NCBI GenBank assembly: GCA_918026815.1
Contig: CAKJVC010000068.1
Coordinates: 2,108,001 to 2,172,000 of the forward strand
Source of the DNA: Chalara sp. BL73
Taxonomy: Eukaryota; Ascomycota; Leotiomycetes; Helotiales
Direction: 5' to 3'
DNA length: 64,000 nt
Positions 1,814 through 41,471 of this stretch are shown here, in pieces. Every line of letters starts with the position of its first letter. Positions within the stretch are counted from its first letter, which is position 1. The notes below the pieces were generated by a model. The model did not search any database. It was not told the DNA's origin and saw only the letters and a program-made list of their open reading frames with translations. Both the position numbers and the translations under genes were made by a program.

Positions 1814-2977
1814 CTATGCATTGGCCTTCGGGGGTCTGGATTTTCCATGCATCCATCCATTTCCTTCATGAGAAAAGTATACCGAGTGATCAAATGCTAG
1901 ATTACGAATGGTGTCCCAGTCCCTACAGAGGTATGTGCTCCCAAAGCCGGTGGTGCCAATGATAGACTCTCCTGGTTTCAGTGGCTGGTTTGGAAGTTGA
2001 AGCGTCATGTCTCCATGGCACATAATGGCCTGCGGTAATATATTAGCTTGAAATATGTAGCTTTGAGATATGAATGGGAAGTAGGGTGATAGAGTGCCAT
2101 GAATAGGAAAACATATAGCATTATAGGAGGGAAAAACGTACTTGGCGGAGGATTTCTATGCAGTGGTCGGTGTGGTGCGTATTTTCAGTGGAATTCGGAT
2201 TGCGGCGATAGTTATTTATGATATGTTTTAAAGTGCCCTGTGGACATTACGTTGGCTTGGGGTAGCATGAGAAGGGGAAAGGGAACATCACGTACCACGC
2301 AGTGAATCTGATGCATAAACCCAATTCCGAAAACCTCATCGGCGGGTGTCCATGGAATGGGGTCAACCTTTGATCCATATTCCATCATAGAGGTGCCACC
2401 ATAATAATCGATCTTTTGAGCATTTTGAACTGCGACCCAGCTGCCTGTTTTACAAATTAGTGCTATCAGCAGACATGAAGGCAATCTTTCCCTAACCTGA
2501 ATAGATATCATCCCATGGTCCCCAAATTCTCTCACCTGGCTTTCGCTCAGGATGGTAGTCCGGATCATCATTCCAGCGGCCATCAAACGGGTCTGAGTTC
2601 TTGAAAGCATCATCTGCCTCCAGGACCTTGTGAACCCAGGGAACTGTAAAAGGGATGTGTTAGAAAATTCTGATTATCGCTGCTGGGATGGGGTTGTGGT
2701 TCTTACTTTCTTGTCCCCAAAGAACATCAGTAGGTAGGCCTGCCTTCATCCCTCTTGCGCCAAACCTGCCTGTCCACCATAATACAGCGAAGGTTAAAAT
2801 GGCTAAGAAGTTACATAGCAAGCTGGCAATACTGAGGGATGATCTTTTAGCCCAAAACGATCGTGTTTTCGATAGGTACTGTGATGATGTATCTTGATCA
2901 CGGTCTTCTTCAAGAAGAGGCTCGTATTTCTCCATCTTGTCTACGGCCTTGGACATTTGAGTTGGAAACTTGAACAT
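1814..2977 (-). CDS. UstYa-like (DUF3328) oxidase, five exons
   Basis: Exons on the minus strand: 2977-2707, 2643-2497, 2444-2296, 2237-2142, 2029-1814, giving 292 residues with all phases consistent and GT..AG junctions. The protein has a ~45-residue cytosolic N-terminus, one membrane anchor (about residues 46-68, LSIASLLCNFLAILTFAVLW), then a lumenal domain. It carries both diagnostic motifs of the UstYa family: HQIHC at 184-188 and HTDHC at 211-215, the latter followed by IEILRQ. Family members are membrane-bound oxidases that install cyclising ether or C-C bonds on Tyr-containing core peptides of fungal RiPPs such as ustiloxin and phomopsin; the HxxHC pairs are needed for activity. It is transcribed away from the repeat precursor at 5103, which makes that gene its obvious candidate substrate (inference). 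Length is normal, with no broken exon. Confidence 0.92.
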
Positions 2978-3069
2978 GAAGAAGTTTGAATGTCGACGTG
3001 CTTGCTGAGGAGGAAGGGAGATAAGCTCAATATGTTATCCAGATTAGCAGCTTGATCATGGAACTACCG

Positions 3070-3075
3070 CTTATA
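3070..3075 (-). promoter_or_regulatory. TATA-like box of the UstYa-like gene
   Basis: The minus strand reads TATAAG here, about 95 bases upstream of the ATG at 2977. It is the only good TATA-like element in the proximal flank. Assignment rests on spacing only. Confidence 0.35.
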
Positions 3076-4942
3076 ATCTGACATTGAGGAGAACCTGGCC
3101 ATGACAATTCTTACAACTGGTTACATCACGTCTTCATGTATCGTTGTGATCCTATTTTTCAATATACTCTTCCTTTTGCTTTTTTGAGAATAGCCTCTGG
3201 TAAATCACTGTCACGGAGCAACATTTCCTATTTCAGAGTGTCTTGACAGCAGTTCACTTGAGAACTATCCAATGTCTCACATCACCGCGCATATTGGTTG
3301 CATGTCTTAGATCACAAGTTCCCAAACCAATACCATTATAGCTGACAAACTAACTTCCAAATCCTTCCTGTCAGGGGTAACAAACTGGAACGCCTCGTAC
3401 GTACCATATCCGGGAATTAGATACGAGAATAAGGGTATATTCTACAGCAGATTTCATATTTCCGAGGTGTGGAACCCTGCAGCAACCCAGGATCCTTCAG
3501 GTGTGGTTAAGCTTCAGCCACTGACGAATCTCTGAGAACGATAATGAATTCCACAATATATGCAGCAGTTCGCAAAGACCATTGCCTGTCCTCTATGCAT
3601 GCACGGATTACGAGAGAATGTGTCCGGAGGTTTGTCCGCCATGACGGGTTTTGTCACGGGAATTCATAGAATGCTACAAGGAAATTGTGCAGGAAGGACG
3701 ATGCCTAATCGCGTAATAGATGCAGCTACATCGGCAAGGTCGTATGACATGTTTTCGGATGTTCTCCGTGGATAAATTAATGGTGAGGGGATACAAGACA
3801 GGGATAAATGGTTACCCCATACAGGTTGGGTTAAGACACTAATAGTGCGTGTGGGGCCTGCTAAGCCATCTCGCTGATCATTCTAAGCTTATTTTGACGG
3901 CAAATGATTTACGTACTATCAAAAAGTGTAAAAGCAAACAATATGGGATGCTTGGTGTTTAGTTTAGTTTACATATAAATAATTTCTTTTTTTTTACAAA
4001 GTAAAGTACGCCATTATACAATACAAATATAACACAAAGCATATCCACTTATTAAACACTTGGAAGTATTAGGTAAGAATTGCATTTATTTACTTGTGCC
4101 TATAAGCATAACTGCTATTTATCAAATACACTTAAATTTTATTATACCTGTACAGTATTCTTTATCTCTATAGCCACGTGCTACACACGTATTCCTTAAT
4201 GTTTTAAGTCTCAATTTACTGTGTCAAACTTTCGACATTTATCCACTTGATACACTGTCACCTGTAATACAGGGTTTTCAACCGTTTTTAGCTCAGGGAT
4301 ACTGATATTTTGTTACAGAACTTCTCTCCTCTTTGACATCATTGTAGTTAAATATTTACTTTACCCGAACGCGTAATAAATGTACTCGCAAGGGCGATTG
4401 ACATGAATGGATGCATACTATGTTCTTTCCTAAACTTCTATTTCAACCTAAAGAATGGGTCTACTTACAAAAGCATACACTGCGCTGTAGCAAGGGAGTG
4501 GAAGCATTGAAGATCCTTTTCTCACAAGCGGGATGGGTAAGATTGGAACATGTCAAAGCTAAGTTCCCTTTCTTCAAACACACCTTCTGCATTCTGACGC
4601 AATCTGTGCAATTTGATAATGCGCGATATTACGAACAGAATATCTCTACTCGACCGGAGGACTGCTTCCTCGAATGTCAATGCAACTGATGAAGATCTTC
4701 CTGGGAATTACAACAAGCCCCTGGAATATAAGTGGTACTTGCAAAGAGGTCAGGTATACAAGATATTACTGCATGGCAGGATGTGATAGCTGTGACCATG
4801 TAGAGCAAGCATGAGGTTCTTCCGGGCGCCAAAGACGTAAGCTTATTTTTCAGTACATGAGCTCTCTTCTTGTTGAAAGCACAAATACGCAATATCCTTT
4901 ATTCCTTAGGAAAAGCCTGGTAATCTTGATACTGTCATTTTG

Positions 4943-4950
4943 TATAAAGA
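4943..4950 (+). promoter_or_regulatory. TATA box of the repeat precursor gene
   Basis: TATAAAGA occurs 153 bases upstream of the precursor ATG, followed by a pyrimidine/CAAC-rich leader without an upstream ATG in good context. The motif and spacing fit a strong fungal core promoter. Confidence 0.5.
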
Positions 4951-5102
4951 GGCTGTCGAAGGACGTTCTCTTTAATTCAAACCAGACTCACATCAGCCAT
5001 TCTCAACATCAACAGCTCAACATCTCTTCTAAGCTCTAAGTCTCGATCCAAACATTATCTCTCCATAAGATCTATTCAACTTACCTAACTCCATTAATCA
5101 AC

Positions 5103-6017
5103 ATGTACTTCCCACAAGCTGTTATCCTGGCTTACATTGCAACTTTTGCTGTTGCTGTACCAGTCAACGGACCCATTGCTAATGGACCACTTGCTGATTA
5201 TGCCGCTAATGGTCCAAAGGCCGACAGACGTGCAAATGGCCCTATCGCTAATGGCCCACTCGCCGACTATGCTGCTAACGGCCCAAAGGCAGACAAGCGC
5301 GCCAATGGGCCTATTGCTGAGAACGGCCCTATCGCTGACTACGCAACTAACGGCCCCAAGGCAGACAAGCGCGCAAATGGACCCATTGCTAATGGGCCAC
5401 TGGCCGATTATGCTGCAAATGGACCAAAGGCGGATAGGCGCGCAAATGGACCCATTGCTGAGAATGGACCTGTCGCTAACGGACCACTTGCTGATTATGC
5501 TGCCAACGGCCCAAAGGCAGACAAGCGTGCAAATGGTCCTATTGCCAACAGTCCACTCGCTGACTACGCTGCAACCAATGGCCCTAAAGCCGACAAGCGT
5601 GCCAATGGTCCTATAGCCAATGGACCAGTTGCGGATTACGCTACAAATGGCCCAAAGGCCGACAGACGTGCAAATGGTCCTATCGCCAACGGGCCGCTTG
5701 CGGATTACGCTGCAAATGGCCCAAAGGCCGACAGACGTGCGAATGGTCCTATCGCCAACGGACCACTTGCTGATTATGCCGCTAATGGACCAAAGGCCGA
5801 CAGACGTGCAAATGGTCCTATTGCCAACGGACCACTTGCTGATTACGCAGCGAATGGACCAAAGGCTGACAGACGTGCTAACGGTCCTATTGCCAACGGT
5901 CCGCTCGCTGATTACGCAGCGAATGGACCAAAGGCTGATAAGCGTGCGAATGGACCCATCGCTGAAAATGGACCAATTGCCGACTTCGCCACCAATGGAC
6001 CAAAGGCTGACTTCTAA
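5103..6017 (+). CDS. Secreted Kex2-processed repeat precursor (candidate RiPP / dikaritin-type precursor)
   Basis: An intronless frame of 304 residues. Residues 1-18 form a signal peptide (cleavage likely after AVA). The rest is 12 repeat units of 21-27 residues with no other domain. A unit begins (A/V)NGPIA, continues NGPLADYAANGP and ends KAD followed by RR (6 times) or KR (5 times). Six units (2, 4, 8-11) are identical in protein; others vary by an inserted E (units 3, 5, 12), an extra NGP (5), NSP or AATNGP (6), and I/V for L. The single Tyr is kept in units 1-11; unit 12 has Phe and ends KADF without a dibasic site. Signal peptide, tandem cores, Kex2 sites and one invariant Tyr match UstA-type fungal RiPP precursors and the wider Kex2-processed repeat protein class. 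With a UstYa-like gene next to it, a modified cyclic peptide is plausible. I do not recognise this core from any described product. Confidence 0.93.
   Translation: MYFPQAVILAYIATFAVAVPVNGPIANGPLADYAANGPKADRRANGPIANGPLADYAANGPKADKRANGPIAENGPIADYATNGPKADKRANGPIANGPLADYAANGPKADRRANGPIAENGPVANGPLADYAANGPKADKRANGPIANSPLADYAATNGPKADKRANGPIANGPVADYATNGPKADRRANGPIANGPLADYAANGPKADRRANGPIANGPLADYAANGPKADRRANGPIANGPLADYAANGPKADRRANGPIANGPLADYAANGPKADKRANGPIAENGPIADFATNGPKADF
5163..6014 (+). repeat. Tandem ~69-bp coding repeat, 12 units
   Basis: The precursor gene is built of 12 in-frame units of mostly 69 bp. Protein identity between units is higher than DNA identity: synonymous positions differ widely (GGA/GGC/GGT for Gly, AAC/AAT for Asn, GCC/GCT/GCA/GCG for Ala). 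The central units (about 5640-5935) are the most alike. The pattern suggests selection on the peptide sequence after older duplications, plus more recent duplication or conversion in the centre. Confidence 0.9.
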
Positions 6018-6787
6018 GTCGCTATGAGGCTTTGCAGCCTGGCGTCCTGATTATTGGGGGGAATGATGCAATGGGAAGAGATATTGGAAGGATGGGCACT
6101 CACTTGAGCTATATGGGAGATTGTGCTGATGGTAGTTGATTTGAGGGATGGTGATGAATTTCAGTTTGTGGTTTTTACGATTTCTTTCAGCTTTTGGGTT
6201 AGTGGTTCGTTGGTTGTGAGATCGCCTTGGAATGAAATCTTCTTAAACATAATCTTTCCTCTCAGGCAAATTTCCAAGAGCATGCCTCAGCTCTCTAAGA
6301 TGTGCAATTTTAGGGCATTCAATATGTCGATAGACATCGTAGCCCATCGAGCTTATTCTATGTGAATGGAAGGAAGGTGTGAGGTGTGAGGTTGGTTCAG
6401 TTTAACGAAATGAGGCTAGCTAGCGGCTCATGCCGGCCCGGTCCGTTAGAGCTTGGCAGCCGTCGCCATTTTAAACGGCGTTGATGCCTTATATGACATA
6501 TACTTAAATTTGGCGTTAGAAAGTATTCACCAAGAAAGTGCTATAGCCGCAAGTGAAAGAATACAAATGGTCAAGAAATTTGTTTCAGATACGGCCGTCG
6601 TCTTTCGTGGTTGCCCCACCACCTGATTTGCGCCAATCCCTGTGACGCAGATATTTATGACGACATGGTAGGTTAAGACTTATAGACATCCGTGCCGTCC
6701 ATCGAACTATATATTTGTCTTGCTTGTCGCCGTGGTGTCTCTTGTATAATCCTTCAAAACTCATTTCAATTTGTAACTCATTGCAGT
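6018..6787. other. Intergenic region between precursor and S28 peptidase
   Basis: This holds the precursor 3'UTR and the peptidase promoter. The frame at 6123-6365 has no recognisable content. No rho-like or structural terminator is expected in a fungus and none is claimed. Confidence 0.5.
6708..6714 (+). promoter_or_regulatory. TATA-like element of the S28 peptidase gene
   Basis: TATATAT lies 80 bases before the ATG at 6788. It supports that ATG over the in-frame ATG at 6692, which lies upstream of this element and would put a hydrophilic tail before the signal peptide. Confidence 0.35.
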
Positions 6788-8544
6788 ATGTTTGCATTGG
6801 TTACAGCTTTTTTCTCTAACTGCCTTGCCGTCCTAGCCTTGAGCATTCTTCCGTGGCTCACTAGCAAAGAAATTACTCCGGTTTACATCGCATATACCTT
6901 TGATCAGCGTGTTCGTGATCTCTTCCAATATTCCGCCCTCACGATGCCTGACATAGCATCGTAGGTTGATCATTTCCCGCATAGTCCTCGTTATGCCCCA
7001 CATAGCAATGCAACCTACAAACAAAGATATTGGTTTGATAAAACGTATTATAAACTGGGAGGACCGGTATATCTGTACATCGGAGGCGAGACGTCGGGAG
7101 AGAATCGAATCTCCAACCTTCAGGCCGGAGGCGAGGATGATGATGCTCCACAGTTTGGAGCCCTGGCTAATTTAATCTAACAGTTATCCAGATTCTGATG
7201 GAAGCCACTAATGGCCTGGGTGTGATTCTGGAAAACCGGTACTATGGGGAAAGTTATCCATTTCCCGATATGTCAACAGATCACCTCGCGTACCTAACCA
7301 CTGAGCAAAGTATGTCTTCCCATTGTAAATCTGATCCTCAGTCAGGATGTGTCTAACAAGCAGTTCCAGCCATTGCCGATAATGCTTACTTTGCTCAGCA
7401 AGTAGCTTTCAATGGCATAGAGGCGGACCTGACCGCGCCAAGCACGAATTGGATTTTATACGGTGGAAGTTTGGCAGGAGCCCAGACTGCCTTTTCCGTG
7501 AAAACTTACCCAGATATTCTATTTGGTGGAATTGGCAGCAGCGCAACGACCCGCGCAGTCTTAGGCTACCCTGAATGGTACGATCCCATACAGAAATTTG
7601 CTCCGCAAGATTGTGTGCAGAGCATCAATGGCATTATCGACAAATTTGATCATCTCCTGGCCACCAACAACCAGGAAGCAATCCAGAAATTCAAAAAATT
7701 GTTCAGCCTCGAATCCCTAACAGACAATCGAGATTTTGCCATGACTATTGCGTTCCCACTCGGTAGCCCAATGACGTACCCAACCAACACCTGGCAAGAG
7801 CTCAACTGGAACCCAGTCGTACCCGGATCGCAAGATTTCTTTCACTTCTGCAACAACGTCACTAACCTCAACGCTCCTAAGAGCATAACCGTCCTTGACA
7901 GCGTCCTATCGGAATACAGTAACGGTAATCCCTGGACGAACTTAGGCAACTACGCGAATTACGTTCAAAACGTCCTTGTCAACAGCTATTGTACCAGTAA
8001 GGGCGGTACCGTCGAAAGCTGCTACAGCACGCGCAACCAGAGCCTCTGGGCAGACATCGCCAACTCCGAGAAACGTGCATTCTTATATGGCGCCTGCACA
8101 GAAGCCGGCCTCTACCAAGCGGCGCCCGAATCCGGACCCTCGCTCATCTCGCGTGTCCTGCAGATCGATTACACCCAGGAATGGTGCACCTGGGCATTCC
8201 TAAAAGGGAAGTACAACTCCATCCCCGAAACTCCCGACCTGAACCACATCAACCGCTACGGCGGGCTGGACGTTGTGGCCGATCGCCTTGCCCATATTAA
8301 CGGCGACAACGATGTCTGGCTTGATAACTGCTACCATTCTAAGTTCGCACCTTCTCCGCGGGAATCGACGGATCTGCGGCCCGAGTATTTGATCTCGGGA
8401 GGGGGGCATCACTGGGACAGCTATGGCATTAGGGACATAGCTGCAGAGCCCCAGTTTATCGCACAGGCGCATTTGTGGGAGATTAGGGTTGTGAAAAAGT
8501 GGTTAAAAGTAGGGAGGAATGCTGAGTATAACCACAATTTATAG
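6788..8544 (+). CDS. Secreted serine peptidase, family S28 (prolyl-type)
   Basis: Exons 6788-6910, 6965-7130, 7184-7309 and 7370-8544 give 529 residues in frame. An N-terminal signal segment (MFALVTAFFSNCLAVLALSI) precedes the family start FDQRVDHFP, then YKQRYWFD, GGPVYLYIGGETSGENR and LENRYYGESYPFPD. The catalytic Ser is Ser172 in YGGSLAGAQ; the acid is likely Asp453 in GDNDVW and the base is in GGGHHWDS (His485/486). S28 enzymes cleave next to proline (lysosomal Pro-X carboxypeptidase, DPP7, fungal acid prolyl endoprotease). The neighbouring precursor carries three NGP tripeptides per unit, so a trimming role in that pathway is attractive but unproven; S28 enzymes are also common secreted nutritional peptidases. 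The second intron has a GC donor. Confidence 0.9.
7131..7183 (+). other. GC-AG intron in the S28 peptidase gene
   Basis: Reading through this stretch gives a stop, while removing 53 bases from GCGAGG to AACAG joins SNLQAG to VIQILMEA, as the family requires. No GT donor gives a consistent phase. The exon ends in GGAG, and GC after AG is the usual form of GC-AG introns. A possible branch site is GCTAAT. Confidence 0.7.
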
Positions 8545-9612: not shown

Positions 9613-12411
9613 TTAACGGATGTGAGCGTTAAGACGGCAAGTGCCGGCAGCGCACGAGTTGTCATACCAACCAAAGAGCAGGTCATCGGCCCAGAACTTC
9701 GAAGGTTTACTCTCTACCGTGGCATTGATGCGGATATGCGTCATATTGCGGAAGGTGCTGTCGAGTGAGATAGAGACGAGTGTGCAATTGTCCTGTGGAG
9801 GACATGCCGGGACCATGTATGTCTGGGTGGTGACAACAGTTTCGCTGTTTGAAGCGATATTGTAACGGTAGCCAGAGAACGCAAAGTCACAATTAGGACC
9901 AGTGGAATCGCAGCCAAATGAGCCACCGTAGAAGTTGAAATTGAAGCAACCTTTGAGGGTATGGTCACCACTGGAGATTTGACCGCTCAAACCGCGCTTT
10001 GAGCCGCTCGGGGTAAACTCCAAAAGAAGTGGTGGGGAGCTGGGGTTGTATGCCTCCTTAGGTGGCGGACTTCTCGTAAACCCATCTGAGAAGTCAAATT
10101 GATGATATGGATTAAATACTGGTGCTGCCTGAACAGAATTTGGGTTGGTGGTGTTGCTGACTACCAGAGGAGGGATATCATCAAACTGCACACAAATGGC
10201 CATTAGCTTTTGATAGAAGTAAATGTTAGCCTTGAGCTGATACTTACGTTAAGTGTGAAGTCATTGTAGTTATCACCCTTCTTAGCACAACCCGAGGTGG
10301 TAGGTGTCGCCACAACGGTGGAGGAGACGATGTTACTTAACTTACTAAAAGTCGAGAAGGAATTAGATGATACAATAATGATCGACTAGCTAGATGTTGG
10401 TGAGTAGACTGAGGTGGATTCTGTCGAGCTACTATTGGAGGATCCGGCCACAGATGGTATTGGAATCACAAAAGAGCTTGGAGCACTCGAGATGTTTTGG
10501 GAGTCCACAGCGGCCGAATTCGAGGTTGTGTGGCTGGTAATTAAAGTCGAGACAATGAGAGTCAGCATCGAAAGGGTGTGACCAGAAGTTGCTGTTGTAG
10601 AGCTAGTTGTCGATGGTGAGACTGGCGCAGAACCTGCCAAGGGCTTATTATATCCTGCCGAGAAAATTGATGATGTTGAAAAAGGTGAAGAACTTGTGGC
10701 GGAAGATAAGAGAGCGGAGTCCAAATTGTGGCTTGGACGTACTGATATTGTGACACCAAGAGCAGAGTTCATCGATGTGCCATTAGAACTGAGTAGAGTA
10801 CCTGAGGCTTCTCTAACAGTAACACTAGAAGATGGTGCAGCAGCCGGCGAAGTTGAGTTAGCAAATGCTGGAATACTGGATGGCCCATGGTGAGGAGGCT
10901 CGCAACGGGAAGTAGTAGGACTAATCGTGGGAGAAGTACCAGTGATCCCCCAGAAAGTTGCCTGGCCATGCACGGTAGCTGATGTATTGGCTTTAGGAGT
11001 GTGAGGTATGATTAAGGAAAATGGAGCTGTGGATGTCAAATTCGCGCTTCCCGCTGGTCTCTTAGTGGTTTTGGTATAAAAGCCCGATTGAGCGGCGAGA
11101 CTCGACTTCGAGATTGTAGGATGCGGAGGACCATATATATCGAGCGTTGGGAAATCAGTTTCGAATGAAATCTGGGCCTGAGTTGTGCGTGTCGTCTGTA
11201 ATGTAGTCGGCAAAGGAGTTGCGACGCCAGCGAGAACAGTAGTCACTGAAGCATTCCAACCACTGGAGTTGATGCCCGTGAAGACTAAACCAGTCCCAAC
11301 AAGTGCATTGCCAGCCGCGCTAGGCAAAATTGATGATGAAGTGGAGTTGGAATATGGTAGAGTAGGTAAGGGATACGTCAAATGACCTAGGATGTTGGAG
11401 TTTGGTTGGCTTGATGATGACGGGCTCGACGATGAAAAAGCATTGGTGTGAGGGCTACTAAGAGTTTGAGAAATCTCATTTCCGATTTGCAGAGTAGAAG
11501 TCATTATCTCTTCAAGGTCTCGATTAGTAGTCAAAGGTAGAGTGACTGTAGTAATGCTATGGGTGGTTCTTGTACTTCGGATGGTTTGGAGGATGGTGCT
11601 TTGAATATGCACTGTGGACGTGCGTGTCTCGTCCAACTCAGCGACAACACTTGAACTAATCGAAGAAGCAATGCCAATACTGCTAAGAGTGTATTTGACG
11701 GTGCTTGAAACTTGAACCGTACTGGTACTTGTTGAATCTGGCTCGCTTGAAGGAGTTGGCCAAACCGTGATAGCCTTGGTGACCACGACAATATCGGTAT
11801 ATGTTGCAGGTGGTGTAGCCCCAACCCAGACAGTTGCTTCACTCTCGACGTAGAAGCTATAGATGCCATTTGAAGATGAGACGCTGCCGGGACGCTCAAC
11901 ACCTTTGGCAGTGACAGTAGTGCTTGAAGTGGGAATTAACTTGGTCAATCTATGATACATGTGCATTAGTAAAGCAGTTGAAGGTTTTGAAAGCAGCAAC
12001 AGCCACATATTGGTGGCTAGCTGCAGAAGTTAAGCAAAGCTCCTCTGCCGATTCGGATGAAGCGGTTGGAAATCTGGAGAAGCAAATACAAAGCGTAGAG
12101 TGAAAATATACATACGTGCTGTAGTGAGTGGCAACAGTGATCACAGTTGTAGTAGGCTTAACATGGCTGCTGGAGGCAGAATCAGGGACCGTAACATAGA
12201 CCGTGGTTGGAATTCCTGGTGTAGTGACGTAGACTGTAGTGGCAGCCGCGCAGCTGGTATGATTGACGCTTTGAGAGGTTAATATCGGTACTTTGAAGAG
12301 TTTGGGCTGAAATCACTTGGGTAAGACTTACTATGGGAACTGATGGGCTTTTACTGCAACGGTCAACATACCAAGAGCACCAAAAATGGCGTTCAACAAC
12401 TTGGCGCGCAT
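9613..12411 (-). CDS. Ser/Thr-rich secreted cell-wall glycoprotein with a C-terminal DUF7371-like domain
   Basis: Proposed exons (minus): 12411-12332, 12268-12116, 11949-10387, 10344-10248, 10185-9613, giving 821 residues. It starts with a signal peptide (MRAKLLNAIFGALGMLTVAVKA). Then comes a ~600-residue low-complexity Ser/Thr/Pro-rich region with repeated TTVYVT- and TSTVQV-like motifs, expected to be heavily O-mannosylated. The C-terminal ~200 residues are compact: FDDIPPL, PYHQFDFSDGF, GCFNFNFYGGSFGCDS, SGYRYNIAS and a Cys-rich end. This pattern matches a fungal C-terminal domain I know as DUF7371. It likely acts in the cell wall or extracellular matrix. A TAG at 10388-10386 interrupts the continuous frame; a 42-nt intron (10386-10345, branch CTAAT, acceptor TTTTAG) would remove it. 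If that intron is not spliced, the product stops after 598 residues and loses the domain. Intron 2 is long (166 nt) and its acceptor is less certain. Confidence 0.78.
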
Positions 12412-15993: not shown

Positions 15994-16871
15994 CAGTACA
16001 ATAAGGAATGAAAATTGAACTTCATGGTAGTGTCTATTTAGTTGTGATAAATAACAGCGGCGAGATTCCCTCGATATTAGCAATCGTAAATTTGAATACG
16101 GCGGAGTAGCGCCTTAATGACAATGCACTCGAGTTCGAGTCGTCAGCAGCTGGTAGTCGGTATTTGATAGCCATGGGCGCGGATCTAGTCTATAGAACCT
16201 CCCTATGTCTGCTCAGATGATATTGAGAATATGATATTAAACGCCAGCTCTATACACAGAAACAGAACAGGGAGAGGTATCCCCTAGGAAATGTGAATGA
16301 ACCTTTCTCGGTTCTCCTCCACGATAGCCTTGGAACAAATCAAAGTTCCAGCAAGCCTCTTCTTGACGTGTCTGACCCACAAATACCATTTCATCAGACC
16401 TAAGTGGTATATTCATATATGCCTCCCCCATATAAGGTGTCAAAATGCTGATCGATTCTAGCAGAACCCCATGAAACCATAGGATAATCGTCCTCCGCTA
16501 TCCATCTTGCCTCCGAATTATTGCAAGAGTCTCCCACAGTGTAGAAATGGTGGAGGCTATCCCACAGAGTGTTTGAGGAAGCTGTCGTGTAAAGAGATTC
16601 TAGGACTAAAGCCATGCGTAACATAGTTGCCCCACAAGTTAATGCGGGAGTAGCCGCGGCTAATCTGTATTTGTGTTTATAAGAGACCAAGCTTCTGCAC
16701 TACAGGCTACACCAACGTCATTGGTCGACTTGACAAGGCGTAAAATTACCTTCGGCAGCCGTCCAAAGGTGAAGTGTTTCTGCGCAGCCTTCAGAATATA
16801 TCCTTTTCTAGAGAACAGCACAACATGCGCAAATCATATATAGCTGAGTACCAGAGCGCGATACTTCGAAG
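15994..16871. other. Intergenic region with a possible broken minus-strand gene
   Basis: Two minus-strand frames, 16690-16400 and 16443-16237, overlap out of phase by ~44 bases. The first contains TVGDSCNNSEARWIAEDD and the second WNFDLFQGYRGGEPRK and a Cys near the end. Their composition is protein-like and together they could be one frameshifted small secreted protein, but I recognise no family. The last ~200 bases before 16872 are the promoter of the glycosyltransferase gene. Confidence 0.3.
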
Positions 16872-18215
16872 ATGATTCTCCACGCCAAAAGGCTGCGGCC
16901 TCTTCTAACACTCATCCTCCACTCCCCAGCCGGAAAGGTCATCCTCAGCTCCGTAGCCCTTTGGATATTGTCCTTCGCATACTGCTCGCACCGCTATTGG
17001 CGCGATCCACATTCCGCGTTTTTTTCTTCAACGCATGTCTATGATCTCCAATACTCCAAGTCACGAAATACCCAAGCAGATGCGTTCATCGAAGCTGCCA
17101 ACCACCCTGGGACAATCGAGCTTAAGAAAGCGTCTGGGAAGCCTGAGATATGCGCCGCCTTCGTGACAGTACAGAGACAAGGAAAAGCGTACATTGCGCA
17201 GGCAATTGGAAGCATGCTTGAGGGGTTAACGGATGAGGAGAGGGAGAAGCTCTATTCGTATGTTTTGTTCGCGGATACACGACCGGAGGTTCATGATATT
17301 TGGAACGCGACATGGTTGAGGAGGGCGGTCGACGAGGTCGGGGGCTATGATGTTAGCGCTGAGGCGTTGGCGCATCTGAAGGAATTGGAGGAAAAGCGCA
17401 ATTTTTACGAGAAAGGAGTGTTGTAAGTTTGACAACATGTTCGTCTAGCCGAAACTAATTAGGTGGACTATAGTGATTATCTTTACGCCTTAGACACCTG
17501 CTACAAGACGGAAGCGCCATACATAGCAATCTTTGAAGACGACATTATCCTCGCGGACGGCTGGCTCGCCAGAACGCTACACGCCCTCCACTACGAAATT
17601 GAGCCTCTTGCTAAACCAGGCGGCCCATTCAATAACTGGCTCTACTTCCGGCTCTTTTATACCGAAACATCTATCCAGTGGGGAGCCGAGGACTTCTGGT
17701 ACGCCAATCTTCCACTCACGTTCTTCTTCTCCTCTCTGGCCACCTCAATCGCTTTGATGAGCACGCGACTCCTCGTGCCACGTACGCGCAAGACACTAGA
17801 TAACTACTCCGTCGCTATACTCTCCCTCCTCACGATTCCAGCGTTCATGGCGCTTTTCTTCATGATTGGCAAAGCTTCCCTCATCCACCAGAATACCAAT
17901 GGAGTTTTCTTGCTGAATAAATATGGGTGCTGTACGCAAGCCATGATCTTCGCCAGGACACAACTCCCAGCTCTCACAGCCCATCTGCGAGAGCTCAAAA
18001 GTGGACAAACTGATACTATATTAGAGAATTACGCCGACGCGAATAATATGCAACGGTTAGCCTTGGCTCCACAGGTCGCGCAGCATGTGGGCTTAGTAAG
18101 TTCACGAGATAATACGGTGGATAATGCTAGGAGTACTTGGGCGTTTTGGTTTGAGGAGAACGATCCAGTATGGCTAAGGACGGAACATGAAATGTTGTTA
18201 AAAGAAGGCATATAG
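16872..18215 (+). CDS. PGAP4-like membrane glycosyltransferase
   Basis: Two exons, 16872-17422 and 17474-18215, give 430 residues. The acceptor TATAG at 17473 is chosen over TTAG at 17462 because only it preserves frame (KGVF-DYLYALDTC). An N-terminal signal-anchor (about residues 20-40) is followed by EICAAFVTVQRQGKAYIAQAIGSML and, after the splice, APYIAIFEDDIILADGWL with the EDD metal-binding motif. The glycosyltransferase domain is interrupted by two close membrane helices (about residues 255-275 and 290-312), the unusual layout described for animal PGAP4, which adds GalNAc to GPI anchors in the Golgi. Fungal members of the family are widespread with undefined acceptors. Conserved YGCCTQAM and the late NNMQRLALAPQVAQHVG segment support an intact enzyme. 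Confidence 0.8.
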
Positions 18216-18336: not shown

Positions 18337-20656
18337 TTAGTATGACAGACCTGTTAATTGGATCTTCTTCATCCTTGCAGGATTGTTATGATTGTAGTCG
18401 CAGAACTCAAGAGTCACGTTCAACAACTCATCAATATGATGGGGCATCAATCGGGGATGTTTATCATCGCTAGCGGCAAGGTTCTCCGCCATCAAAACAA
18501 TATTTCGAATCTGTCGTCCATTGATCTCAGCTTCCGACCACCGGTCCACCTCGTTTATTAGTGTTGTTTTATAGGCCGGAAGCATATTCATGTTTTGGAT
18601 GAAAGAGGTCCAGATTTGATGCCGATCATCACGGCCAAGTTCGAAGAACCGTATGGGGTAGCTGATGCGAGACTCGAACGCTTCGTCTATACAGTCTATC
18701 AAGTTGGTAGTGAGAATCAATATTCCCTGGAAGTATTCAAGCTTGCGAAGAAACACTTAAAACTATTATTACGGGTCTTGATCATGGAGAAGTGTATTTT
18801 ACCTGAAACCCAGGAATTCTGGGTCATCCTCTCAAAGGTTCTCTTCTCAAGAACGATTTCTGCTTCATCTATTAGAAGGATGGCTTTCCAGTCTTCAGCA
18901 TTTGAGAAAATTCGCTCAAGGGACTGCTCCCATTTCTCGTGGCTTGCGATTCTTCCCAGATTCACCTTCAGCAATGGCCGCTTGGTATACTCAGAAAGAA
19001 CCTCAGCAGTTAGCTAAGACAAATGTCAGCACTGTGTGACTCAGCATCCACATTCGACTTACAGTCTTCCCCACACCAGGCGGGCCATGTAGTAAAAAAA
19101 CAATTCCTTTTCCTTTGCCCTCTATTACATCCCTTGATTTCTCGGCTTGTACACGACGAGAGTTGCTGCTTGCGAGCCGAATAAGAGTATCCTTTCTATC
19201 CTGATCTAGCACCAACCTATCCAAAGCTTCAAGTCGCCATTGCTTTTCCTTCAATTTGTCAACATTAACGCTGTACCAGTCATGATCGTCCAGATTGAAG
19301 ACTGTGATACTGGAGGGGCATATCATGAACCCTTCTTCTGTGAAATCAGAGATCTCGTGATTGTGGACGATGCTGCCATCGTGGAACGAGGGATGCGAGA
19401 TGCGTCGCTTGTCATCAATATTGGTTTGAATGATGACTTTAGTCGCCGCGTCTGGATCAACAATTACTGTAGATGTGAGCTACGGTAAGTTAATACTACA
19501 TCTTTTATTTTGGGGAATGACTTTTCTACTTGCTTCTAGAGAATTCGCCCCACTTTGTTCGTTGGATCTAACACCAGATATATAACGTGGAATGATATAT
19601 CCCAAATCTCTCTTCACCATTGGCAGTGCTTCCCCTTGATAGGTCATCACTCTGGAGTCACCATCACAATAATTTCTCCACGCCCTCCCTCTACGTATCG
19701 AAGCTTCTTTCAATTCCTCTTTAGATTCATGGTGAGATAAAGGGTAAAATCCTAGATCAGTAATACGCTTTGCATCCGCAAATACTGGGATTTCCCGTTG
19801 GGCAGATACTTCTCTGAACCGTCCGCCTTTTATCGTAATTTTCACAAGTGTGACATACCAAGTGCCTCTTTTGAGCGTAGGATTGCTTTTGTTGTGCTCA
19901 AGCTTCACAGAGGTTATCTTGGAGATATCAAGAAGCCCAAGAGGGTCCTTGCAGACTGCAAAATCTCCGGGCCTGAAAAGAGCCCAGAGGTCATCGTAGA
20001 CAATAAATCCCTCAGAAATCTTGCTTCTCACATCCTCGTGTAAACGAGCAGACCACCCAATCGTTGCAAAGTAATACAGGGCATCCATATGAGCACGATT
20101 TATGGATGTTGCCTCAGAGTCTCCTTCAACATTAGATTTCATCTCCTCGATATGGTGGTATAGCGGTCCGAAAGGACTTTCCAAGAGAATGTTTGTGGCC
20201 GAGAGAGCAACCCCGTGGTAGTGTTCGATATAAATCACTTTCCTGAGCTGTTGCTGCAAGTAAGTCGACTCTATGGATAACTGGATTTGATTGTCGGGTC
20301 GCTTTATCAGCTGTAGAGCCTTTACATTCCTTGGTCTATGGGGCTCGAATTCTTTCGGGTCACAAGGCTCAAGAGCTTTCCCTTCACCTAGTTGCTTTCT
20401 GTATGAGTAAAATGTTTTCCAATTTTCGGGTGTGCATGAATCTTCATCCTCAACCTCTATAGGAATACTTGAGAGGGGCACGGAGAGCGGTTCTCCTGGT
20501 GGATGTAGCGATGATGTTGGAGGCGTATCAAAGTCAGAATTTGTAGCTGTAACAGGACTAACAATATTGTTGTCCTGCACGTCTTGTCATTAGTCACCTA
20601 ACGTTCTTCATCCTCTCCTTCAAACCTACATATGCGGGATTTCCCAAATTCGCCAT
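18337..20656 (-). CDS. AAA+ ATPase with N-terminal DUF7025-type region
   Basis: Exons (minus): 20656-20630, 20574-19530, 19466-19063, 19013-18803, 18755-18337, giving 694 residues, all phases consistent. The 27-bp first exon (MANLGNPAY) depends on a good GTAGGT..GTGCAG intron with a GACTAAT branch; starting at the ATG at 20580 instead adds only MQ before DNNIVSP. The N-terminal ~350 residues resemble the DUF7025-type region of fungal AAA proteins (YIEHYHGVAL, FYPLSHHESKEELKEASIRRG). The AAA core has Walker A GPPGVGKT (about 485-492), Walker B ILLIDEAE (about 537-544), and the sensor segment GILILTTNLIDCIDEAFESRI with its arginine finger. Such proteins are numerous in filamentous fungi and mostly uncharacterised; they may remodel protein complexes. 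It is divergently oriented to the STAND-like gene at 21047. Confidence 0.88.
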
Positions 20657-27134: not shown

Positions 27135-27948
27135 TCATTTTGGTGCATCTGTCAACGGCACATATCTCACTCCGTACTGCCTTTCCTTCTTCACATTACC
27201 ATCTTTATCCTTATCCACCACCCAGATATACTGATTTCCACTATATCCTCGTTCGTCCTCGACGGGGATGAACAATCTAGGCACCAGCTCTATCAGTAAT
27301 TCCAACAACCTTCACAACAATACCTCACTTACCTGCCAGGTCTCTTCAGCTGCTCAATAAGCACGGAATGGAGTTCTACAGCGGCAGCGCCGACATGTAT
27401 GGCATCCCATTCCTCACCCCCCTCATCCTTCCATCCTTTCCTCCCATCACCGACCACAAAGCTCACCGATCCGTCGCTCACCAGCTTTCTGCCCGCTTCA
27501 CTCTTCAGCATATTTGATTCCCCCAGGTCTCGTAACGGCTTGATATGCTCCAGTCCTACTACTTTGCCGCCCGGCTTCGAGCAGACTAGCTCTGCGAGCA
27601 CGGCAGTTAGGTAGCCGGAGCCAGAGCCAATATCGAGGACTTTCGCACCCGGGTAGAGGAATGGGAGAAGAGATTCGGCGGCTGAAGCGTGCATGTGCGG
27701 TGCGGAGATGGTGGCGGCGTGGCCAATTGACTGAGGGGAGTCTTCGTAGGCATAGGTAGTGTCCGGGCAGAAGTGTGCTCGGTCGACCTGTTGCATTGTA
27801 GTCTTTAGTCGTTGTAGCCTAAGTCGGCATGCGAGTAAGGAGATACCTTTGACATTGCAGCCTTGACAGCCGGGCTCTTTATCAGACTATTCTTGTACAG
27901 ATTATTGATGAGCTCTTCATTTGTCTTTCCTGAACTACGCCACGCCAT
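27135..27948 (-). CDS. PCMT1: Protein-L-isoaspartate O-methyltransferase
   Basis: Exons (minus): 27948-27847, 27787-27333, 27276-27135, giving 232 residues. The chosen start gives MAWRSSGKTNEELINNLYKN, the usual family N-terminus; an in-frame ATG at 28062 would add an atypical basic tail. Family landmarks in order: VDRAHFCP, SIGHAATISAPHMHA, the SAM-binding motif VLDIGSGSGYLTAV, GDGRKGW, DAIHVGAAA and the end QYIWVVDKDKDGNV followed by YGVRYVPLTD. The enzyme uses SAM to methylate isoaspartyl residues and starts repair of age-damaged proteins in cytosol and nucleus. The last intron acceptor is GCCTAG; nearer AG sites would bring a stop. Symbol given is the animal orthologue name. Confidence 0.95.
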
Positions 27949-29097: not shown

Positions 29098-29898
29098 TCA
29101 AGCAACCTTGATAACTACTTTTCCGAAATGTGAGCCATTATAGGTACTTGAACACCTCCTTGGTCTCCTTGAAGTCGAACACTCGATCGACAATCGGGCG
29201 GATTTCCTTTCCCATATACACAATTTTTAGTATCTCCTCCATCCGATCTTTTGGCCCGACGTTGATCCATTTCAACGCAGCATGTCGCAAGATTAATTTC
29301 ATGTCTAGCCCTAATTCCGATTTTTGTTTGCCATCCCTGTCGGTGATGCCACAGCGAGCCTACTACACTGATGTTACCACCAGGCGCAACGCACGAGAGG
29401 CTCTGGTCGAGTGTGGCCGGGCCGCCATTTCCTACGGTAATGTCGGCTCCATTACCATTAGTGAGGCGCAGTACTTCAACGCCCCAGTCAGGGGTCGTGT
29501 TGTAGCTGATGGTATAGTCCGCGCCAATCTTGCGTATGCGTTCAAGTTTCTCGTTCGAAGACTAGGTGATTATGGCTTTTCAAATCAGAATTCCAACCTC
29601 TTGCTATTTGAGCTTCGTAGCTAGAGCAAAAATATAGAGGGAAGATGGCTTACTGGTAAGATTCAGGGCCTTGGCCTGCTGTAAGGCTGCAATACTCACT
29701 CCGCCAGTGCCTTGCAACAAGACCACCACATCTCTCCCAACTATAGGATTTCCGATAGGCTGTTCCCAATTCAATGCCATCCAAACCGTCACCGTTGCAA
29801 TGGGCAATGTGCTTGCCTCTTCGAAGCTCAGTTGGTTCAGGCCCAGTGTCTAGGACCAGGTTGTCGATGCCATCCATTAAAGTGGTCCATTGCTTCAT
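29098..29898 (-). pseudogene. Zinc-type alcohol dehydrogenase / quinone oxidoreductase pseudogene
   Basis: The minus strand reads a family N-terminus ([20 protein letters not shown]). It then jumps directly to [19 protein letters not shown] and [18 protein letters not shown], the Rossmann-fold entry. About 110 residues of the GroES-like catalytic domain are missing. A presumed intron follows, then IGADYTISYNTTPDWGVEVL, ADITVGNGG, LSCVAPGGNISVVGSL and a frameshifted C-terminus ending near 29098. The internal deletion, a phase change at its joint and later stops make it non-functional. Confidence 0.75.
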
Positions 29899-31120: not shown

Positions 31121-32775
31121 ATGGAGTTCCACGAGGTTTCGAAGTTTGCGGAGGAATCCATTCACGAGATTGCACAGAGATTCCAGAAGCTGCCAGGCTC
31201 AGCAATTCTCATCCGGTACATCCAGTCAAGCTACCAAAATGACCCAGTCCGTTCCGCCATTGAATTGATACTGGTTATCTTCTTCGTGCGATACCTTCTG
31301 TCACCATCATATCCCACCCATAGCGGCAACTTCGTAAAACTGACGGAAGATGTGAGGATACCCGAACAATCCGAGAACTTTCTGCTGACAAAATGTAGGA
31401 GATTGACGAACTCGTGGATGAATGGAACCCAGAGCCTCTCGTCGCACCATCCAGTGCTTTCGAAGAGGCCGAAAGAGAAAAGCTTCCCGTTATTGTCGGA
31501 GCTACCGGCCCCAAATCAAGATTGTCAAATGGACGAACCGTTATGAATTTGGCATCATACAATTTCTATAATTTCGTCGGGGATGAACAGGTGAAGGAGA
31601 AGGCAATTCAGACTCTGCGGACATACGGTGTTGGACCTTGTGGACCACCGCAGTTTTATGGAACTCAGGATGTTCACATGAAGGCGGAGGCTGCTATTGC
31701 GTCTTGCTTGGGAACTGAGAGTGCAATTGTCTATGCCCACGCCTTTTCTACAATTTCCAGTGTAATCCCAGCATTCTGCAAGAGAGGAGATATCATAGTT
31801 GTCGACCGCGCCGCCAATTACTCCATTCGCAAGGGAATTCAAGCTGCGCGCAGCACGATCAGATATTTTGAGCATAACAATATGGAAGATTTGGAGCGAG
31901 TTCTGCAAAAGGTTATCAAGGATCAAGCCAAAAAGCCATTGACCAGAAGATTTATTGTCACCGAAGCATTGTCCGAGACAATTGGAGACTGTGTTGATCT
32001 GCCCAAACTCGTGGAGCTCAAGCAACGTTACAAGTTCCGCCTCATGCTCGATGAGTCATGGTCCTTTGGAGTTCTTGGTAGGACTGGCCGCGGCCTTACA
32101 GAAGCCCAAAACGTGGATCCTTTACAAGTTGATATGCTTGTGGGCTCACTCGCTGGACCTCTATGCTCTGGAGGCGGTTTCTGTGCAGGCACGAAAGACG
32201 TGGTTGAGCATCAACGCATCACTTCCGCTTCATATACATTCTCTGCCGCGCTTCCTGCTATGCTCGCCACGACGGTGTGCGAGACTCTCAACCTACTGCA
32301 GTCAACTCCAGACATCTTGGTACAGTGCCGTGAAAATATTAAGGCCATGCGTGCTCAGCTAGATCCTCGAAGTGACTGGGTACATTGCACGAGCGCGGTC
32401 GACAACCCTATCATGCTCCTTGCTCTCAAGCCAGACATTGTCAACTCCCGAAGACTAAGCATAGAGGAACAAGAGCGGGTGCTTCAGGAATGTGTTGATG
32501 AGGTATGACACAAAATTTTCTAGTTGATCAACTTTCTAACTTTCCAGACTCTTGCAAATGGGGTTCTCATCACGCGCCTCAAAAGTATGCCATTATCACC
32601 ATCCAGCAACGGAAAGGAAAACGATTGGAAATTACAACCTGCACTCAAAATCTGTGTCACCACCGGCCTTACCAAGAAAGAGATTGAAAAAGCAGGCGTG
32701 ACGATACGGCACGCCATCACAAAAGTGTTGACAAAGAAAACCAGCAGCAAGCTGGCCTTGCCGAATGTTATATAA
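31121..32775 (+). CDS. LCB1: Serine palmitoyltransferase subunit 1
   Basis: Three exons, 31121-31351, 31399-32502 and 32548-32775, give 520 residues. The N-terminal membrane segment (about 48-64, SAIELILVIFFVRYLL) is followed by an alpha-oxoamine synthase fold: MNLASYNFYNFVG, YGVGPCGPPQFYGT, IVVDRAANYSI, LMLDESWSFGVLGRTGRG and VGSLAGPLCSGGGFCAGT. As in all Lcb1 subunits, the PLP-binding lysine found in Lcb2 is absent from the last motif. The Cys in GVGPCGP matches the residue mutated in human hereditary neuropathy (SPTLC1 C133). With Lcb2 in the ER membrane it condenses serine and palmitoyl-CoA, the first step of sphingolipid synthesis. Complete and ordinary in length. Confidence 0.96.
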
Positions 32776-39133: not shown

Positions 39134-41471
39134 ATGAGATCTTTTAGTGTACTTTTAGCCGTAGTTAGCTCAGTCAAAGCAGTTTATCGAGCAGGGCAAA
39201 ACATCAATGTCAAGGGTATCGAGTACTATGTTGCTCCAAACTCGGTTTCCATTATCGACTTGACAGCAGATCAGAAGAGTGCAGCTTCGAGAGGTCAAGA
39301 TTTTGATCTTGTGCCTCTTACAGTTCTTGCAGATCCCACAAATCTGTTCACGACATCAGTGTTTGGCTCGCTTGTCGCCAACTATACAACCTTGGATGAT
39401 GTATTCAACCCTGGTTTTCTGCAAGGTATGTTTATTGCTTCATATCCGCTATTTCTGTAGACTTCGTACCATATTATAGTTTCTTCCTTTTTGATATAGC
39501 TTTCGTCCTTATTATTGAAAGTCAAAAGATCTTTCCCTTATCACATTGATGGCAATAATTCGTCACGTGAAACAATACAGATTTCAGTCAAATAGCTTAT
39601 CAAACTTAGTTGTCTATCTCACTCATAGTGGCTCCGGCTCTGCCAATGTTCAATATCCTCTGGGCGCAGCTCTCACCGAATATGGCACGCAACTGTTTAT
39701 GAACGCTCGAGAGTACACTACATCAGCCACAAAACAAGGTCAAGCCATCACTAGTTGGCGAACAGCAATTCCGTCTGGGCCATACTTCATGTCCGCATCC
39801 ACTGGCGATGTTTACCAAGCTCTCCGACTTTATTCGGATGTGCAAAGTGCCTTCACAGAGGGAACTATCGCCAATACAGACGGCACATATTCGCCACTCA
39901 CTGCAGCGGTCTCAGGCTATAGTTATGCCACAATTGGCGTCCCATCCCGACTTTATTACAAGAAGACATCAGAGAAGCCACTATCTGGTGTAAGAATCGG
40001 TATCAAGGATATCTATGACATTGCTGGTTTGAAGACAGGATGCGGCAATCGTGCATAGTATGTCTTTTTGTCGTTCGATCTAATTGTACGCGCCTGACTT
40101 CAATATTAGTTTCGATCTATATCCAGAACGCAGTACTACAGCTCCAGCTGTTCAGAAACTAATTAGTGCTGGAGCTGTTGTTGTTGGCAAGATGAAGACT
40201 TCTCAATTTGCTAATGGTGAAACTGCGACAGCAGATTGGGTAGATCAATTGTCGCCCTTTAATGCACGGTGCAGACATTGAATTTGCCATAGAATCGAGC
40301 ACTTGCTAATTACTTGGTGTTTTAGTGGAGATGGCTACCAAGATCCATCGGCATCCAGTAGTGGCCCTGGAGCAGGAATTGGGGCTTATAGCTGGTTAGA
40401 TATTGCTCTAGGAAGCGACACTGGTGGATCTATTCGTGGCCCTTCTCAGTCAAACGGCTGTTTTGGCAACAGACCATCTTGGGGACTGGTTACTCTGGAT
40501 AATGCAATGCCTCTTTCACCTGTGATGGATACTGCTGGCTTTCTGTGTCGAGATCCCATTCTTCACCACGCAGCTAGCAAAGTTCTCTATGGCGACAACA
40601 TCTCTAGCACGAACTTTCGCAGCTTTCCCACCAAACTAGTCACCTCTGATTTTCCCACCAGTGAAGATTCTTCGGCTACGGCCGTTCTTTTCGATTTTGT
40701 AGCAAAGTTGCAGGCATTTCTTGGTGCGAAGAATGCCACCGCGCTTGATCTGAACGGTCTTTGGTTTGATACCAAGCCCGCTGCAGCTAACGACTCGGTA
40801 TTGAGCTCTTATATGAGCGCTGTGTACCCAATCCTGATCGCACAACAGCAATACACGCAATTCACATTACCTTTCTATGCCGACTATGCTGCAGCCCATG
40901 GGGGGCGTAAACCATTCATCAACCCAGTGCCACTGATTCGCTGGGCCTATGGACAGAGCTTCCCTCCAACTGCCATGGAGGAAGCAGACACGAAGCGGAA
41001 AATCTTTAGGGACTGGTGGGCAGAGAATGTGATCCCGAGAAATGACGAGACATGTAGCGACAATTTGATTCTCTATCCCGGAATTCTTGGACGGCCTAAC
41101 TACCGCAATCGTTATTTGAGGTAAGTCTCCTGCCTTTCTCCCTCTTAATGGAAATTCACGCTCACGATCTCAGCGCACCTAGTATCCCTACTGGCTTTAG
41201 TGTTAATCGAGCCTCAAACTTCGCGGAGCTGCCGGATCATACGTTCTTGAGTAAGTCATCAATCTTGAAAGACCTTGGAACGAAAATTGATATGAATAAA
41301 GTCGGCCAAGCGCCATATACCTCAATTATCACTCAGCAACAGGAGTATTTGCCAGTCGCAGTGCAGATCGTAGCTGCGAAAGGATGTGATGGAATGCTCT
41401 TCGAGCTCACAGAAAAGCTGCTTCAAGAAGGCATTCTAAAAGTGCCCAAAACGGGAAGTATGACTTACTAA
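39134..41471 (+). CDS. Secreted amidase (amidase-signature family) with an N-terminal extension
   Basis: Best exon model: 39134-39425, 39522-39566 (tentative), 39610-40057, 40110-40268, 40326-41120, 41174-41471, giving 678 residues in frame. A signal peptide ([16 protein letters not shown]) and a ~200-residue N-terminal region precede the amidase core; this arrangement occurs in fungal amidases labelled scytalone dehydratase-like Arp1. The catalytic triad blocks are visible: Lys in [14 protein letters not shown], the cis-Ser in [12 protein letters not shown], and the nucleophile Ser in [31 protein letters not shown] supports the same subfamily. It hydrolyses an unknown amide outside the cell or in the secretory path. 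The second exon and its two junctions are the weak point; the rest is firm. Confidence 0.82.

Follow-up and report, generated by a model that had tools for sequence, protein, structure and literature searches.

We propose that an open reading frame in the genome of Chalara sp. BL73 quite likely encodes the Kex2-processed repeat precursor of a UstYa-modified RiPP. The frame lies in a stretch of 64,000 nucleotides, here called the window, between a divergent UstYa/DUF3328-type gene and a peptidase S28 gene, and the locus is probably a compact, minimal UstYa-type RiPP locus with the core [LIV]AD[YF]A[AT](T)NGP (Table 1). On its sequence features, we file it with the known class of KEPs that have a UstYa partner; a dikaritin product is not claimed.

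Table 1. Features of the precursor locus and its surroundings (window positions unless marked L044, an upstream region)
Feature	Position	Strand	Remarks
Precursor ORF	5103-6017	+	304 aa + stop: hydrophobic N-terminal region, 12 repeat units, stop
Likely signal peptide, residues 1-18	5103-5156	+	hydropathy only; ends AVA ahead of VPVNGP; cleavage point read from sequence by eye
12-unit array with 11 KR/RR sites	5157-6014	+	first site 5226-5231, last 5940-5945
Peptidase S28 gene, 531 aa	6788-8544	+	exons 6788-6910, 6965-7130, 7184-7309, 7364-8544; like A. niger prolyl endoprotease
UstYa/DUF3328-type gene, 292 aa	1814-2977	-	exons 2977-2707, 2643-2497, 2444-2296, 2237-2142, 2029-1814; PF11807 E 3.4e-23, 83.1 bits
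First HxxHC motif (HQIHC), UstYa protein	2299-2313	-	motif search
Second HxxHC motif (HTDHC), UstYa protein	2160-2174	-	motif search
Region between divergent UstYa and precursor coding sequences	2978-5102		2.1 kb; TATA-like box at 4943 before precursor
DUF7371 frame	9613-10248		Pfam
Glycosyltransferase matches, sub-threshold	16848-18212		Pfam
AAA lid + DUF7025	18337-20586		Pfam
PCMT	27329-27886		Pfam
Zinc-binding dehydrogenase frame	29115-29561		Pfam; 21 kb downstream of UstYa-distal end
Aminotransferase	31399-32508		Pfam
Amidase	40282-41124		Pfam
RPAP1	50965-52392		Pfam
PIP5K, upstream	L044:66-1133		Pfam
MFS frame, upstream	L044:7321-8100		Pfam; end ~3.7 kb beyond UstYa gene

The precursor frame has no intron and reads open throughout. 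Its protein starts with MYFPQAVILAYIATFAVA, followed by 12 units split by 11 KR/RR sites. By hydropathy, the only measure applied to the putative signal peptide, the 10-residue maximum is 2.32 at the N terminus and at most 0.38 past residue 25. Every unit contains N[GS]P-[LIV]-A-D-[YF]-A-[AT]-(T)-N-G-P, and units 2-12 begin A-N-G-P; the protein contains neither Cys nor Trp. RR stands at residues 42, 112, 188, 211, 234, and 257, and KR at 65, 89, 141, 165, and 280. Splitting after [KR]R yielded 12 units and 11 sites with zero other dibasics, exactly as the original prediction had it. Its statement of one Tyr per unit, with Phe in the last, was also borne out, as units 1-11 have one Tyr each and unit 12 has Phe; two additional Tyr lie in the N-terminal region, outside the repeat. 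The three NGP tripeptides claimed for each unit are present in 10 of the 12, whereas unit 5 has four and unit 6 has two plus one NSP, and the spacing given as NGP-x4-Y is in fact NGP-x3-Y, with three residues between. The prediction of up to 11-12 copies of one main peptide plus variants needs correcting: the exact unit ANGPIANGPLADYAANGPKAD, followed by KR or RR, occurs only six times (units 2, 4, 8, 9, 10, and 11), whereas the core LADYAANGP is present in 8 of 12 units.

A tandem array with a 69-bp period and 10.9 copies was reported by TRF (score 593). The number of dibasics exceeds chance; when the residues past position 18 were shuffled 20,000 times, the mean was 3.5 dibasics and the highest count 10, against the 11 observed. 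KEPs are defined as having at least three tandem repeats of at least 8 aa, none over 100 aa, between KR/KK/RK/RR sites (PMC7329392). Here, KR/RR sites enclose 10 units of 21-27 aa on both sides, in addition to the first and last unit. This agreement with the repeat definition, with dibasics at the 11 junctions of the 12 units and nowhere else, argues for the UstYa-RiPP reading. A signal peptide, which KEPs are also expected to have, is likely here by hydropathy alone. Opposite the precursor, a 318-aa open frame runs on the minus strand (window 5094-6050), probably as a by-product of the repeat codon pattern.

The units are more constant as protein than as DNA. Among the seven equal-length inner units, pS was 0.67 and pN 0.020 (raw proportions), in a comparison that leaves out unit 12, whose register is shifted (pN 0.157 with it included). 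NGPIA and NGPKAD are unchanged in 12 of 12 units, with pS values of 0.65 and 0.64, and the core segment varies at few positions (pS, 0.77; pN, 0.063). Since freshly copied DNA would match at silent sites too, the repeat protein sequence has probably been kept by selection, and that silent sites differ far more than the protein is again an argument for a UstYa-type RiPP precursor. The units are of unequal age: units 7-11, which share 52-63 of 69 bases mutually, seem to have a more recent common origin than units 2 and 4, which share 51-57 with the others. Derivation of NGPLADYAA and NGPKADKRA from one another found no support, with 15.0 of 27 DNA bases identical versus 15.2 under the synonymous null.

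A DUF3328 gene beside the precursor had been named beforehand as a check on the assignment to UstA-type RiPP precursors. Such a gene is present, divergent, with 2125 bp between it and the precursor start, and it supports that assignment. The gene model comprises five exons and four GT-AG introns; a PF11807 score above the cut-off (25 bits) together with two HxxHC motifs places the protein in the UstYa family, and a hydrophobic stretch can be read at about residues 47-68. Among 207 word-sharing candidates, a search of low sensitivity, one relative was found, a PF11807 protein of Claviceps citrina (33% identity over 90% of the query; 36% in a separate alignment); no solved structure matching the UstYa protein was found. 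A bacterial-type promoter/terminator scan gave nothing useful, nor did a repeat search in the region between the two genes. A six-frame search of 94 kb (the window and 30 kb before it), which would miss a motif split by an intron, returned 11 HxxHC matches. Only the two of the UstYa gene occur as a pair within a UstYa-like frame; the remaining nine stand alone, none in a UstYa-like frame as judged by eye.

Across the genome, 89 PF11807 matches fell into 58 clusters at a 1-kb gap, a lower bound, as the search missed the window's own UstYa gene, split into short exons. Within 2.1 kb of a fixed gene, 0.0064 UstYa loci would be expected if there are 59 loci and 0.0126 if there are twice as many, so that finding one at this distance favors the UstYa-RiPP reading. 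Some UstYa matches occur in pairs of identical score across contigs (C62:2040005 and C181:3489; C41:14482 and C107:1809) and look like duplicated segments or haplotigs. A 26-position fragment, also of identical score, occurs at C11:5072, C156:2857, and C10:578230 and is possibly carried by a repeat.

In a survey of 7878 KEPs, 22% had DUF3328 genes nearby, the counts being highest for the immediately adjacent gene; Tyr occurred in 65.6% of the repeats when a DUF3328 neighbor was present and in 38.2% when it was absent (PMC7329392). Both the peak next to such precursors and the enrichment of Tyr in their repeats speak for a UstYa-modified product here; the Tyr in the core expected of dikaritin/ust-RiPS loci is found in 11 of 12 units, with Phe in the last. 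The genome also holds one match to a Kex2-type P-domain, consistent with the processing that we propose.

Further support comes from another UstYa locus. Nine other UstYa regions (L046-L054; about 10 kb each) yielded one clear Kex2-repeat frame (L048), one weak frame (L047), and none in the remaining seven, a sample too small for a rate. The clear frame (L048 6645-7103 on the plus strand, from C86:35645) has Tyr-containing units of the GEAVYDNPKTATLPY type, of which the scan counted three and visual inspection added a fourth; the UstYa match C86:33642-34163 is about 1.5 kb away in divergent orientation. Such a second Tyr-repeat frame diverging from a UstYa match argues for the same reading of our locus. 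The L048 frame shows no visible signal peptide; an upstream exon would be needed. In L047, the frame from 86 (plus strand) has AAKADAEAVPQ units near a UstYa match and passes the looser threshold only. No Kex2-repeat frame was found in 30 UstYa loci with 1.5-kb flanks (L012-L041), in four regions without a UstYa match (L042-L045; 38 kb), or in eight loci that matched a variant of the DNA pattern given below, off by one codon in spacing.

The search for relatives of the precursor was largely negative. The same genome contains no homologue other than the frame itself, and two antisense matches to it were its own reverse strand. The DNA pattern AAY-GGN-CCN-x3-TAY-GC revealed no second array; its 21 genome matches (10 inside the ORF and 11 scattered) compare with 14 for the reversed pattern. 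Against the protein database, the precursor gave zero matches at E <= 0.001 among the best 7998 candidates by shared words that were scored. A query with residues 18-142 returned 12 weak matches (best E, 1.8e-3), of which two carry the name DUF4097/YvlB. The one inspected (P0002) has NGPI repeats without regular dibasics, and we take the weak matches to reflect convergence. Pfam matches of the precursor to SNN_cytoplasm and DUF2563 scored above the cut-off, but no stretch passes alone, and we treat them as composition artifacts. The unit had been described as unrecognized, and three 8-letter pieces of it were indeed not found in the literature searched. ADYA and DYA are absent from the main text of PMC7329392 and PMC6339444, whose supplementary tables might list the unit; two "ngp" matches in the main text of the survey fall within a list of genus names. 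Homologues in many fungi without a UstYa neighbor, named beforehand as a pattern that would speak against the prediction, were not seen, but zero precursor homologues were found at all.

Among known systems, the KEPs described by Umemura in 2020 (PMC7329392) and Le Marquer in 2019 (PMC6339444) share the repeat definition with our precursor but do not include its unit in either main text. Closer in layout is the asperipin-2a locus (aprA/aprY) of Aspergillus flavus, where a repeat precursor also lies beside a single UstY-type gene in a cluster without tyrosinase, indicating that one UstY gene can suffice (PMC6514808, PMC12048977). The asperipin-2a core, FYYTGY, has several Tyr, whereas LADYAANGP has one, and its cluster includes a reductase and a transporter, whereas here an S28 peptidase adjoins the precursor. 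The dikaritin precursors of ustiloxin and phomopsin share the leader, KR-split repeats, a UstYa-type neighbor, and Tyr in the core (PMC7329392, PMC6514808). Their clusters, however, have a tyrosinase and two and five DUF3328 genes (PMC7329392), compared to one UstYa gene here and a contig without a tyrosinase match. S41 peptidases are common in ustiloxin/phomopsin-type clusters (PMC6514808), but no S41 match was found among our Pfam-scanned frames.

The S28 peptidase gene starts 770 bp past the precursor stop. Its spliced model scores 157.3 bits against PF05577 and the unspliced last exon alone 79.1 bits, above the cut-off. Among solved structures, that of A. niger prolyl endoprotease (AN-PEP) is the closest (8b57; E 1.9e-36), with an alignment over residues 38-519 that includes the GGS, D, and H regions. 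The intron at 7131-7183 needs a GC-AG boundary, chosen among eight in-frame GC-AG options for length and reading; no in-frame GT-AG intron near 7150 fits. Its donor is not a typical one, and the gene may be broken rather than intact. The genome has nine S28 matches, counted as six loci; the chance figure for S28 adjacency, calculated post hoc, is 0.0004. In a separate region (L045, C127:42001-50000), about 1.6 kb separates an S28 match at C127:46910 from a match to tyrosinase (C127:44894-45310).

One can envision the following sequence of events. The precursor would enter the secretory pathway, Kex2 would cut after the 11 KR/RR sites, and a Kex1-type carboxypeptidase would trim the basic residues. 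The product of the divergent gene, probably membrane anchored, would oxidize the core, through cross-linking or dehydrogenation that most likely affects the Tyr segment DYA[AT]NG. A role of the neighboring S28 peptidase is also possible, in trimming at the prolines on either side of each core. AN-PEP (MEROPS S28.004), to which the downstream gene model aligns, is assigned to family S28 and can digest large substrates (PMC9147577); that source does not present it as a RiPP enzyme. Such an activity would suit a precursor in which prolines enclose each core, and this arrangement suggests, as a working hypothesis, post-proline trimming to a 9-10-mer. In its fullest form, this would be a pathway with two proteases, in which Kex2 splits the array and S28 then cuts after the bracketing prolines (12 of 12); the 23-aa unit would be a carrier, the NGP tripeptides excision signals, and the product an oxidized 9-10-mer, [LIV]AD[YF]A[AT](T)NGP. 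We offer this version tentatively and consider it doubtful. In a limited literature search, confined to listings, we found no precedent for a prolyl endoprotease as the clustered excision enzyme of a UstYa-type RiPP and nothing joining DUF3328 with S28 or the phomopsin precursor with an S28 peptidase.

The same features might be explained without modification by UstYa. The array could release linear secreted peptides, for signaling or defense, that are cut by Kex2 and otherwise left alone, with the UstYa gene a chance neighbor or acting elsewhere. Such peptides have precedents, since 78% of surveyed KEPs have no DUF3328 neighbor (PMC7329392) and linear, minimally modified KEP peptides have been detected in agaricomycetes (PMC9769878); the genome also holds at least 58 clusters of UstYa matches. 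We nevertheless regard this as unlikely, given that just 0.006-0.013 UstYa loci are expected within 2.1 kb, that each unit has a single Tyr or Phe, and that a UstYa match and a repeat frame diverge from each other at L048 as well. A precursor of an alpha-type mating pheromone would have the same architecture of Kex2-separated repeats (PMC6339444), but units 2-12, with their A-N-G-P start, lack the run of XA/XP dipeptides right after the Kex2 site, and pheromones of Leotiomycetes and Sordariomycetes have two conserved Cys (PMC6339444), whereas our protein has no Cys and no Trp. We give this explanation hardly any credence.

A structural or surface protein is improbable as well, less so than a pheromone. 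It could be a folded repeat, for instance a beta-solenoid, in which the basic pairs do not serve for processing. It could also resemble the repellent Rep1 and release peptides that assemble on the surface; in Ustilago maydis, Rep1 belongs to the KEPs, and its peptides form amyloid-like fibrils (PMC9769878). The predicted AlphaFold single-sequence model, with its regular pattern of short strands (mean pLDDT, 63.7), would be compatible with a folded repeat protein, and the weak database matches, with two DUF4097/YvlB names and NGPI repeats in the one inspected, point the same way. However, the mean pLDDT of the five models ranges from 31 to 64, and a Foldseek search of the PDB returned zero matches at E <= 0.001; we regard the model as uninformative. 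The lack of regular dibasics in the inspected match, the retention of basic pairs at 11 of 11 junctions while K and R alternate, and the UstYa neighbor, which a structural role leaves unexplained, all weigh on the other side.

Some observations count against the UstYa-RiPP reading itself. In the survey, a DUF3328 neighbor is present for just 22% of KEPs, so most have none (PMC7329392). Repeat frames are scarce at the other UstYa regions (one clear and one weak of 9; 0 of 30), no second UstYa-like motif pair was found within 94 kb, and of 39 PF00264 (tyrosinase) matches in the genome, none is on the window's contig, C62. With no homologous precursor found, the precursor-UstYa pair cannot be shown to be conserved.

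The wider neighborhood was scanned with Pfam in 67 distinct frames, namely 44 of the 102 frames in the window that reach 100 aa and 23 of the 25 in L044 that reach 90 aa, with shorter exons and L042-L043 outside the scan. For the zinc-binding dehydrogenase frame and the MFS frame, we found no sign that either belongs to the locus. The MFS frame, which looks to be of the sugar-transporter type, is not counted as part of it, although it might still serve as a transporter. It is the first of two membrane-protein-like frames on the minus strand at L044 6372-8100. On the other side, the DUF7371 frame adjoins a Ser/Thr-rich frame of 547 aa on the same strand (window 9613-12029, minus), and the two are possibly one cell-wall protein gene.

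Our findings describe a core sequence not found in the literature searched, together with a small enzyme set that includes one UstYa. The locus lends itself to studying how a single UstYa protein acts on a one-Tyr core in which the Tyr is followed, in the main form, by Ala-Ala-Asn-Gly. Participation of the S28 peptidase, if real, would account for the recurring NGP motif and provide a rule by which product boundaries could be predicted in other precursors of this type.
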